Of a stretch of 64,000 nt of DNA, positions 28,373 through 59,047 are shown piece by piece. Positions within the stretch are counted from its first letter, which is position 1. Every line of letters starts with the position of its first letter. Source of the DNA: Desulfitobacterium metallireducens DSM 15288. Lineage in GTDB: Bacteria; Bacillota; Desulfitobacteriia; Desulfitobacteriales; Desulfitobacteriaceae. A model generated the notes under the pieces. It saw only the letters and a program-made list of their open reading frames with translations, had not been told where the DNA came from and did not search any database. The translations under genes were made by a program, and so were the position numbers. Where the stretch lies: assembly GCF_000231405.2 (NCBI RefSeq), contig NZ_CP007032.1:1364001-1428000 (forward strand), written 5' to 3'.

Positions 28373-30269
28373 GTGCGCCACGCATGGCGATTAACTAGAC
28401 GGTGAAAGTCCGTTATGGGGGTATGTAGCGACCAACCATTAGCTTAAGGCAAGGGTGTCCATCGTGAGGTGGAATCTGAAGGAAGCCGGCGGCAAAGCTC
28501 CGACCCGAGGAACACGAACAGTATCAGGCGCAAAACGTGGGGTAAGGCTGCCATTCAAGCTGAAGCCCAAAAGCTACACGGATACGTTAGCGTAAATGCT
28601 GCGGGTACATGGAACGAAAGTGAATCGTCTTACCGTGGGAGGCCTCACGGACAGGTGGAAACAGAGTAAGAAACCTGGTTGAAACAAGATTTATCGTGAG
28701 GAGTCAGCTGAAGCCATAGTACAGAGGTGGTCTAGACACCGACGGAAGGGTTGAACCAAAGGAGGTGTGGGTCAATGAAAGTTACTGAAAGTGGTAATTC
28801 AAAACACAGACAACTTCGATTCGAAGACTATCTGCAAAGGGTATCTGCGGAACAGAGAGAGTATGCGGAAGTGTGCGCGCCACCTAAGATGACTGAAACC
28901 GACAACACCAACACGAACAAGCAGACAGAAGGCTTGCTTAAGCAAATTCTTAGCGTCGAAAACCTAAACCGAGCTTACAAACAGGTGAAGAGAAATAAAG
29001 GCGCAGGTGGAATCGATGGTATGCAGGTGGATGAACTTCTACCCTTCCTGAAAGAGCACAAGAATGAACTTTTGCAATCCCTCTGGGACGGTAAATACCG
29101 TCCAAAACCCGTACGGAGGGTAGAGATACCCAAAGAGAACGGAAAGACTAGAAAACTGGGAATACCAACAGTCGTAGACCGGTTAATCCAACAAGCGATT
29201 ACTCAAGTCCTGAGCCCCATCTTTGAAGAGCAGTTCTCAAACAACAGTTTTGGATTCCGACCGAACCGCAGTGCTCATGATGCACTGTTGAAATGCCAGG
29301 GTCATATTACAGAAGGATACAAATATGTAGTAGACATGGACTTAGAGAAATACTTTGATACGGTCAACCAGAGCAAACTGATTCAAATTCTGTCTGAGAC
29401 AATAAAAGACGGGCGAGTCATCTCACTCATCCACAAATTCCTAAGAGCAGGAGTTATGGTGGATGGTTTGTTTGAGGAAAGCCCCGAGGGCGTACCGCAA
29501 GGCGGACCCCTTAGTCCCTTACTTGGAAACATTATGCTCAATGAATGTGACCACGAGTTGGAAAAGCGAGGGCATAGATTTGTGCGTTATGCAGACGATA
29601 TGATGATTTTTTGCAAAAGCAAGAAAGCAGCAAAGCGTGCGCTTGACCATATACTTCCGTTCATCGAAGGGAAGTTATTTCTCAAGGTAAACAGGGAGAA
29701 AACTAAGATCTCGCACGTAAACTATGTAAAGTATTTGGGATATAGCTTTTACATCTACAGAGGATTTGGGCGACTGAGAATCCATCCTAAAAGCATCCAG
29801 AAACTCAAAGATAAAATCCGAGAAGTGACTGGACGGAGCAACGGGATGGGAATCGAAGAACGGAGAACAAAACTCAACCAGATAGTGCGAGGCTGGACGA
29901 ACTACTTTAAACTGGCCGACGCTAGAAATCTACTTAAGACACTGGATGAGTGGCTAAGAAGTCGCATACGGATGGTTACCTGGAAGCGATGGAAGAGAAC
30001 CCGAACGCGATTTGAAAACCTCAAGAAAGTAGGTATACAAGAGGAACAAGCGTGGATGTGGGCAAACACAAGAAAAGGCTATTGGCGTACTGCCCATAGC
30101 CCGATTTTGACAAAAGCCTTATCCAATAAGCGTTTCGAACGGATTGGATATCTCAGTTTTAGTTATTCTGCGAAGTAACGCGTAAACTTTGGAAGCGCCG
30201 TATACCGAACGGTACGTACGGTGCTGTGGGAGGTCGGCTGACCAAATAATGGTCAGCCTCCTACCCGAT
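28373..30269 (+). mobile_element. Group II intron with maturase, class C-like
   Basis: The 5' end reads GTGCGCC, and the 5' ribozyme part has strings typical of class IIC introns such as the Oceanobacillus one (TTAGCTTAAGGCAAGGGTG, GGAATCTGAAGGAAGC, CGAGGAACACGAAC). Domain V/VI features lie after the maturase gene: AAGCGCCGTATACCG with CGGTACGTACGGTGCT, then GGTCGGCTGACC with GGTCAGCCTCCTACCCGAT. The 3' boundary is taken at the AT ending CTACCCGAT (30269). It sits right after a terminator hairpin between convergent genes, the known preference of class C introns. Exact ends are uncertain by a few bases. Confidence 0.88.
28775..30178 (+). CDS. ltrA: Group II intron reverse transcriptase/maturase
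   Basis: 467 residues from ATG 28775, chosen because AAAGGAGGTG lies 7 nt upstream. Reverse transcriptase blocks 1-7 are intact: RRVEIPKENGKTRKLGIP, NSFGFRPNRSAHDAL, DLEKYFDTVNQ, GVPQGGPLSPLLGNI and the catalytic RYADDMM. A GIIM maturase domain follows (IVRGWTNYFKLADARN). No HNH endonuclease domain is visible after it, as in class C-like introns. The reading frame is uninterrupted, so the element may be active. Confidence 0.95.
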   Translation: MKVTESGNSKHRQLRFEDYLQRVSAEQREYAEVCAPPKMTETDNTNTNKQTEGLLKQILSVENLNRAYKQVKRNKGAGGIDGMQVDELLPFLKEHKNELLQSLWDGKYRPKPVRRVEIPKENGKTRKLGIPTVVDRLIQQAITQVLSPIFEEQFSNNSFGFRPNRSAHDALLKCQGHITEGYKYVVDMDLEKYFDTVNQSKLIQILSETIKDGRVISLIHKFLRAGVMVDGLFEESPEGVPQGGPLSPLLGNIMLNECDHELEKRGHRFVRYADDMMIFCKSKKAAKRALDHILPFIEGKLFLKVNREKTKISHVNYVKYLGYSFYIYRGFGRLRIHPKSIQKLKDKIREVTGRSNGMGIEERRTKLNQIVRGWTNYFKLADARNLLKTLDEWLRSRIRMVTWKRWKRTRTRFENLKKVGIQEEQAWMWANTRKGYWRTAHSPILTKALSNKRFERIGYLSFSYSAK

Positions 30270-56325: not shown

Positions 56326-56739
56326 ATGAATATGCCAATGCAACCTATGACCGGTACTGCAGGTATGATGGGAACCCCAGGAATGGGTATGACACCTGGA
56401 ACAATGGGAGCTGCTCCCGGAATGTATGCCCCAGCTTTTCCCCAAGCGGGTTACGTCAACCTTGATCCAGACTATGCACCTGGTGCTGTAACTCTTGATG
56501 TAGGTAATCCTTGCTGCTATCCATATCATGGTATGGAGATGCACCATGAGATGCACCATTGTACACCTGAGCAGCTTCCAACCCCAACACCAGAAGTTTA
56601 TGTTGTTAAAAAGGGAGATAGTGTATACAAAATTGCAAAACGCTATGGAACAACGATGAGAGCGATCATACTTGCCAATAATCTCTCAAATCCTGATCTT
56701 ATTTATCCTGGGCAGGTCTTATATATCCCTGGCGTCTAA
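56326..56739 (+). CDS. LysM domain protein, probable spore-associated
   Basis: 137 residues. The first 80 are rich in Met, Gly, Pro and Tyr (repeats such as GMMGTPGMGMTPGTMG) with a Cys-Cys and His-rich stretch (MEMHHEMHHC). A single LysM domain ends the protein (YVVKKGDSVYKIAKRYGTTM, NPDLIYPGQVLYIPG). No signal peptide is seen, as in SafA/coat-type LysM proteins that bind cortex peptidoglycan from the mother cell. GAAGGAGG precedes the ATG. Confidence 0.85.
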   Translation: MNMPMQPMTGTAGMMGTPGMGMTPGTMGAAPGMYAPAFPQAGYVNLDPDYAPGAVTLDVGNPCCYPYHGMEMHHEMHHCTPEQLPTPTPEVYVVKKGDSVYKIAKRYGTTMRAIILANNLSNPDLIYPGQVLYIPGV

Positions 56740-57595: not shown

Positions 57596-58348
57596 CTATT
57601 TTACAGCTGGCTCACCCTTGATAGAATGGATTAGTTCAAGAGCATTTTTTACAGTCGCATCCTCACCATCCATCACAAGCGTGATTGCTCCTTCAGAACC
57701 ATTCACGCCACCGGAAGCAATGCATTTGGCATGAACAGGGAAGAGGGCCTCTAAAGCTGTTATTTCGGTAACCACGGTTGCACCAAACATAGGTATTAAC
57801 CCTATCTTATCACCAATGGCTTCATCCGGACGATGCCCAGACATAAACTCGACTGCTTCACGAACATCCGGAACGAGCTTTTCTAAGCCAATGGGTACAA
57901 TGAGCTCTATCCCACGGACATACAATGTGCCTTCTGCTGCCCCAATGGTTCCTCCTGTGAGATTAGAAGCTGCAACAGCTGCTAACCCTGTATGATCCAC
58001 AGCATTTCCACCTTTAATAAAAAGGTCCCCAGGTTCTAATTTTGTAAGGTATTCTTTCCAATGAACATCAGATCTGAGTGCTTTACCTTTCGAAATGATA
58101 AATGGATGAATTTGTTTTTTTTCTGCACTGACCCCAGTTTTACCCTCACTAATGATACCTACTGTATAGGTACTTTTCTCATCTATCCGTATCCCTAAGA
58201 TTTCTTCCGCTAGGAAAGCATTCGTCGTTCCTCCCGCAAGAATGATGGTGTGTTCAGCTAATGCTTTTTGCATAGCAGGCAGAGCTTTAACTCCTTTTGC
58301 AATCAAACGTTTTGACTCACTTGAAGTAAGTGTGATTTGTGCTCGCAT
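57596..58348 (-). CDS. Conserved hypothetical protein, 250 residues
   Basis: From ATG 58348, with AGGAGGAGG 7 nt upstream; a longer frame to 58384 is unsupported. The product has glycine-rich turns that look like a nucleotide- or metabolite-binding enzyme (IILAGGTTNAFLAEEILGI, KPGDLFIKGGNAVDHTG-like, NLTGGTIGAAEGTLYVRGIELIVPIGLEK, MFGATVVTEITALEALF, CIASGGVNGSEGAITLVMDG). I recognise no named family and see no membrane segment. Single gene on the reverse strand. Confidence 0.78.
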   Translation of the reverse strand: MRAQITLTSSESKRLIAKGVKALPAMQKALAEHTIILAGGTTNAFLAEEILGIRIDEKSTYTVGIISEGKTGVSAEKKQIHPFIISKGKALRSDVHWKEYLTKLEPGDLFIKGGNAVDHTGLAAVAASNLTGGTIGAAEGTLYVRGIELIVPIGLEKLVPDVREAVEFMSGHRPDEAIGDKIGLIPMFGATVVTEITALEALFPVHAKCIASGGVNGSEGAITLVMDGEDATVKNALELIHSIKGEPAVK

Positions 58349-58475: not shown

Positions 58476-58504
58476 TTGACAGGTAACGTCTTGGCTGGCA
58501 TAAT
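58476..58504 (+). promoter_or_regulatory. Near-consensus sigma-A promoter of the structured RNA
   Basis: TTGACA (58476-58481), a 17-nt spacer and CATAAT (58499-58504). It is among the best matches to the housekeeping consensus in the window and has no protein gene behind it for 430 bp. Confidence 0.85.
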
Positions 58505-58510
58505 AGAGTC

Positions 58511-58816
58511 ATAGATAAGACTTAATATTTAGTTAGCTTTCCCGCAAAGCTCCAATATGCCAGATTGTGTATAAGTCAAACTTAAATCACCAAAGTAGGT
58601 TTCGAATTTTGTTCCTTCGTAAGATCGCATTCGAGTCTGATCAATCGTTTACCGACATTGGAACATTTTATTCTGTGGGATTGTAATTGGGAATCTAATT
58701 CAGTGGATATCTTTGTCAAGTACCGTTTATAGCTTTCGGTTTTCTTAGAGCTTTGCGGGAATTATATTAAAAACGTCTGGCCGCTTGAACGTAATAGTTT
58801 AAGCGGTCTTTCTTTT
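58511..58816 (+). ncRNA. Structured RNA, possibly 6S RNA
   Basis: This gene-free stretch begins at a strong promoter and ends in a clear terminator. TTCCCGCAAAGCTC (58539-58552) pairs perfectly with GAGCTTTGCGGGAA (58748-58761), a 14-bp closing stem around about 195 nt. Inside, TGTTCC pairs with GGAACA, giving a long rod with open regions. Size and shape resemble Firmicute 6S RNA, which binds sigma-A RNA polymerase. No RNase P, tmRNA or SRP RNA hallmark was found. Identity as 6S is inference; an independent RNA gene is well supported. Confidence 0.65.
58779..58816 (+). terminator. Terminator of the structured RNA
   Basis: GGCCGCTTGAAC pairs with GTTTAAGCGGTC (12 positions, two G-U), followed by TTTCTTTT. 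Confidence 0.9.
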
Positions 58817-58936
58817 AGCAATAAATATAAAAATGATCCAAATTAGGGATTTTTTAGTAACAATTTATTTCTGATAACATAATTTATATTAGGTAAATTC
58901 AATAAACTAAGATTTAAATCACAGGAGGGAAATATT

Positions 58937-59047
58937 ATGGCACTTGGTGGAGTAGTTGTTGACGGATGTGGACCAAACTTCTTACCAGGCATTGCAGTAG
59001 TCGTTGTGATTATCCTTCTGCTTATCGCGATGGGAATCGTCTTCTAA
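58937..59047 (+). CDS. Tiny hydrophobic protein, YjcZ-like sporulation type
   Basis: 36 residues from ATG 58937 with AGGAGGG 8 nt upstream. A short Gly/Cys-containing head is followed by one transmembrane helix (GIAVVVVIILLLIAMGIVF). This is the shape of YjcZ/YczJ small sporulation proteins. It shares its pattern with the next gene, so the pair is a tandem duplication. Confidence 0.75.
   Translation: MALGGVVVDGCGPNFLPGIAVVVVIILLLIAMGIVF

Follow-up and report, generated by a model that had tools for sequence, protein, structure and literature searches.

A probable family of stem-closed non-coding RNA genes, outside Rfam 15, in the Desulfitobacteriales

Analysis of a 64,000-nucleotide stretch of Desulfitobacterium metallireducens DSM 15288 DNA (the window) revealed an intergenic element that is probably, judging from sequence comparison, a member of an uncatalogued non-coding RNA (ncRNA) family found in most genomes of one order, the Desulfitobacteriales. 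The first-pass annotation had proposed an independent structured RNA gene at this position, and the proposal was borne out in that a promoter, a stem and a terminator recur jointly in about 70 copies, with the stem covarying among them. The family is new at the class level because nothing in Rfam 15 matches it, and a published description was not found in the open-licence literature searched; its way of working may nevertheless prove ordinary. It represents an RNA class outside Rfam 15, carried by most of the genomes in this order, which comprises sulfate reducers and dehalogenating bacteria. The element is most likely a trans-acting RNA gene, which in many lineages would be gated by attenuation.

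The element lies in a protein-free gap of 588 bp, which extends from the ATG (58348) of a minus-strand gene encoding a 250-aa protein to a small open reading frame (ORF) at 58937, and in which no ORF longer than 45 aa was found. On the plus strand, a sigma-A-type promoter (58476–58504) combines the hexamers TTGACA (58476–58481) and CATAAT (58499–58504), 11 of 12 positions matching the consensus, with a 17 nt spacer and a TG extension upstream of the −10 element. This site ranked best among four promoter-like sites in the region; since shuffled sequences gave 2.7 sites on average, the promoter alone is weak evidence. An intrinsic terminator (58779–58813, plus strand) consists of a 12 bp hairpin (58779–58808) followed by the T-rich tail TTTCTTTT, with one terminator found against 0.2 expected. 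Taken together, promoter and terminator predict a plus-strand transcript of about 300 nt (58511–58813), starting about 7 nt past the −10 element and ending in the T run.

Between these signals, TTCCCGCAAAGCTC (58539–58552) is perfectly complementary to GAGCTTTGCGGGAA (58748–58761), forming a 14 bp stem that encloses 195 nt (58553–58747). By simple arithmetic, about 5e-4 perfect 14 bp inverted repeats within 250 nt would be expected in a 588 bp gap. When the arms were taken as 17 nt, the 5′ arm TTCCCGCAAAGCTCCAA (58539–58555, plus strand; family consensus TTCCCGCAAAGTTCCTCC) and the 3′ arm TTAGAGCTTTGCGGGAA (58745–58761, plus strand) were 94% complementary, leaving a variable interior at 58556–58744 of the same strand. 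The −10 element is followed 35 nt later by the stem, with no leader in between. The predicted fold of 58511–58822 had an energy of −82.2 kcal/mol (z = −3.98), with 0 of 100 shuffles as low, and the segment from arm to arm folded alone gave z = −2.66. The near-consensus promoter, the perfect stem around 195 nt, the strong terminator and the protein-free gap had each been described before, and all four were confirmed.

The same annotation had likened the element to 6S RNA, and this part was not upheld. When the window element was searched against Rfam 15 at gathering scores, no family matched, including the 6S, tmRNA and RNase P models that had been suggested as a check as well as those for SRP RNA and tRNA. 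At E ≤ 10, RF00013 was still unmatched and nothing credible came from other Rfam families, and none of the Rfam families matched the element's homologues, leaders included. The genome's true 6S RNA was located at C1:1291625–1291802 (RF00013, 70.8 bits), and a recognisable 6S was found in 59 of the 61 genomes searched, that of D. metallireducens among them. With no Rfam match, and with a distinct 6S gene present here and in 59 of the 61 genomes overall, the 6S reading is unsupported and was dropped. Like 6S RNA, the element is a stand-alone gene of a few hundred nucleotides with a long closing stem, and two 6S RNAs are present in some bacteria, so that a second, diverged paralogue binding RNA polymerase could be imagined. 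We consider this extremely improbable, because in addition to the failed model match the family ranges from 200 to 1000 nt in length, and its consensus folds, in which the closing stem alone is supported, lack the central bubble between two long stems that is typical of 6S. The evidence instead favours the fallback offered in the first-pass annotation, a new RNA class. As a separate observation, one genome with six 6S matches (G024) carries one of them (C5, 117955–118146) directly upstream of a family copy (118465–119061).

When the whole window element was used as a BLAST query in 61 genomes, it returned only itself, with no second copy in its own genome, because the interior diverges. Homologues were first reached by synteny, by looking beside the counterparts of the neighbouring 250-aa gene. 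The corresponding gaps in Desulfitobacterium-type genomes hold the same arms and terminator, and in three such genomes and one further genus the copies are flanked by that 250-aa gene on one side and by those small ORFs on the other. A 5′-arm pattern then matched in 20 of the 83 genomes of the class, and its reversed control in none. Further copies were added by BLAST with a Desulfosporosinus copy, by a 3′-arm pattern and by reading the surrounding DNA. The family amounts to 70 paired copies in 53 of the 83 genomes, 205–1005 nt across and up to three per genome, those found via arm patterns being biased towards conserved arms; one additional copy with a bulged stem (L293) stands outside this count. 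A promoter-like site was found upstream of 69 of the 70 copies, the exception being truncated by a contig end, and an intrinsic terminator just downstream of 67. The window copy displays these family traits, with the closing stem TTYYCGCRRAGYTCC / GGARCTTTGCGGGA, an upstream promoter and a downstream terminator.

The D. metallireducens genome was found to hold a second copy, L259 (C1:1643444–1643770, minus strand; with its leader, to 1643934). Tandem pairs, in which each copy has its own promoter and leader, occur in Desulfosporosinus-type genomes (L233, L238 and L248). The genomes with copies include what we take to be Desulfosporosinus, Desulfitobacterium and Dehalobacter-like bacteria, the genus labels being drawn in part from matching named records (Acididesulfobacillus acetoxydans for L127 and a Desulfosporosinus MAG for L077). 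An exact-pattern scan of 84,980 species, which diverged copies would escape, found a credible partner arm nearby only in the Desulfitobacteriales; matches elsewhere look like chance.

The closing stem is 14–18 bp long in the family and nearly invariant in sequence, with only a minority of cells varying. Over 34 distinct arm pairs it was 98.7% paired, against 32–60% in slid controls. Covariation in relatives, which had been named beforehand as a test of the gene, was found: double-sided changes occurred in 7 of 16 stem pairs and in 12 cells, where shuffles that ignore relatedness gave 1.8 (0 of 500). In one copy (L228), an A–U pair was lost from both arms (CCCGCAAGTTCC / GGAACTTGCGGG). A second count, on 33 distinct arm pairs, gave 36 G–U pairs against 8 A–C mismatches, indicating that the constraint acts on the plus-strand RNA. 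This asymmetry would be unexplained by a DNA repeat, which bears on whether the element might be a MITE-like insertion with inverted repeats at its ends that mimic an RNA stem. The 17 nt inverted repeats at both ends, the several copies per genome and the tandem copies would all suit such an insertion. However, the promoter and terminator are situated beyond the arms and still accompany them from copy to copy, BLAST returned no second copy in the genome, and synteny marks copies in different genera as orthologous; we therefore regard a mobile element as very unlikely. No target-site duplication was seen by eye, and no empty site was noticed in close strains.

We found that family copies are located in unrelated intergenic places, following thiamine genes or close to M42-type peptidases, a purine nucleoside phosphorylase, lactate-type genes and others (named by sequence reading), and these varied contexts leave no constant partner gene. 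The 250-aa protein gene (57596–58348, minus strand) is conserved in the order, and in several genera the RNA is found close to it; its product matched nothing in Pfam or NCBIfam. Downstream of the element, the small ORFs at 58937 and 59090 are of sporulation type, and a LysM-type protein similar to the spore coat assembly domain of SafA is encoded nearby at 56326–56739 (plus strand). The element could in principle be a cis-acting leader or attenuator of these two ORFs, whose orientation it shares and which also follow it in Desulfitobacterium-type genomes. Its own terminator, however, ends the RNA 124 nt before the ORF, and other family copies precede different genes in either orientation, making a cis role improbable.

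In many copies, those of Desulfosporosinus and Dehalobacter-like genomes and L259, a leader of about 170–200 nt separates the promoter from the stem. It is absent from the window copy and from Desulfitobacterium-type copies, and it does not define the family as a whole. According to structure prediction, it can form a long P1 helix whose 3′ strand is shared with a terminator-like hairpin, so that the two structures would be mutually exclusive. When the leader RNA was ended before the 3′ strand of the hairpin, an antiterminator of at least 8 bp formed in 45 of 46 sequences, and with longer leader RNA the terminator was the minimum-energy fold in 16 of 46. For this structure, double-changed cells numbered 15, compared with 5.8 in shuffles (0 of 500), with slid controls less than 50% paired; it was set by hand, the RNAalifold consensus on the leader alignment being poor, and covariation was weaker in an earlier test on a larger alignment.

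A covariance model of the leader, with no arm included, had hits in 49 of the 83 genomes of the class at E ≤ 1; the L259 leader scored 42.2 bits (model R1). Ten loci outside the set used in model building (L291–L299 and L304) were read, and in all of them an arm-closed element and a terminator were found downstream of the leader match, although in two of them (L293 and L304) one arm had already been visible in earlier pattern searches. Of all the evidence for the family, this recovery of arm-closed copies by a leader model is the most independent. Weak matches at four further loci (L300–L303) were rejected, as they fell in protein-coding or unrelated sequence and had no arms. In 398 genomes of the phylum, the model gave one weak match outside the order (L312), which lacked arms and is probably due to chance. 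The leader is a candidate orphan switch over an ncRNA instead of a protein gene, for which there are few precedents.

The enclosed region behaves differently from the stem. The window interior had no secure similarity to that of any other copy and was not confidently alignable to them. Consensus folds of the interiors gave little support beyond the closing stem, with the exception of an inner stem in Desulfosporosinus, where UAGUGGAGGAUUUGUCCAGAUUAG pairs with GAUUAAUCUCGAGCCGUGUAUCCAUUA; its pairs are almost invariant and hence uninformative on covariation. The rod-like architecture described earlier accordingly holds for the closing stem, which is strongly supported, while the interior is too poorly conserved to back any single fold. 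Sister-family copies and L259 share, some 50 nt upstream of the 3′ arm, a sequence like RAAGUAGGUGAYUCU. In addition, some copies carry repeat arrays just after the 5′ arm, among them 14.5 copies of a 31 nt tandem unit in L207 (5185–5639) and about 31 copies of AGTTAGTT (AGTT unit) in L235 (4296–4761). It is unusual for a closing stem that hardly varies to enclose an interior that expands by repeats. The window copy could be a decaying one, since its interior is unalignable and its stem is shorter than that of most copies, the GGAGG part being absent. We also observed that AGGUGAY, a Shine–Dalgarno-like sequence, recurs inside L222–L226, L259, L291–L299 and Desulfosporosinus copies.

These features suggest how the RNA might work. 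An ncRNA of about 300 nt would be made from its own sigma-A-type promoter, end at its intrinsic terminator and act in trans. Because the closing stem is conserved in sequence beyond what pairing needs, we infer that it may be recognised by a partner, either a protein or an RNase, while the enclosed region would carry lineage-specific binding sites. A binding or sequestering RNA of this kind, in which the partner reads the closing stem and the interior holds lineage-specific sites, is our tentative proposal. Alternatively, the gene could encode a trans-encoded base-pairing sRNA whose interior pairs with target mRNAs, with the closing stem merely stabilising it. The stand-alone gene with promoter and terminator would fit this well, and lineage-specific targets would be in keeping with the rapid evolution of the interior and with as many as three copies in one genome; but no short interior stretch is conserved family-wide as a seed, and repeat expansion to about 1 kb would be unusual for an sRNA, so that we think this rather unlikely.

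To return to the binding RNA, in leadered copies, including L259, competition between antiterminator and terminator would gate its production. The window copy has no leader, and its output should simply follow the activity of its promoter. It is conceivable, though doubtful as a complete account, that the class is private to the order and that an orphan riboswitch-like leader, sensing some signal, gates a repeat-expanding, stem-closed, trans-acting binding RNA. In Listeria, the ncRNA Rli55 is terminated early by a B12 riboswitch and sequesters EutV (PMC8079631). The likeness lies in the control of an ncRNA through early termination within its leader, which is what we propose for the leadered copies; the differences are that no B12 or other Rfam riboswitch matched the family's leader, that no ANTAR or eut link was noticed and that the window copy has no leader. 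Rli55 may thus serve as a working precedent for a possible mechanism and not for membership. The raiA motif, or ModT, is likewise a structured ncRNA gene conserved in Bacillota, for which trans action by a mechanism still open has been reported (PMC11706538); it differs in that the window element and its homologues are without any Rfam match. Elsewhere in the window, the group II intron domains RF02001, RF01998 and RF00029 were detected above gathering score at 28458–30269 (plus strand).
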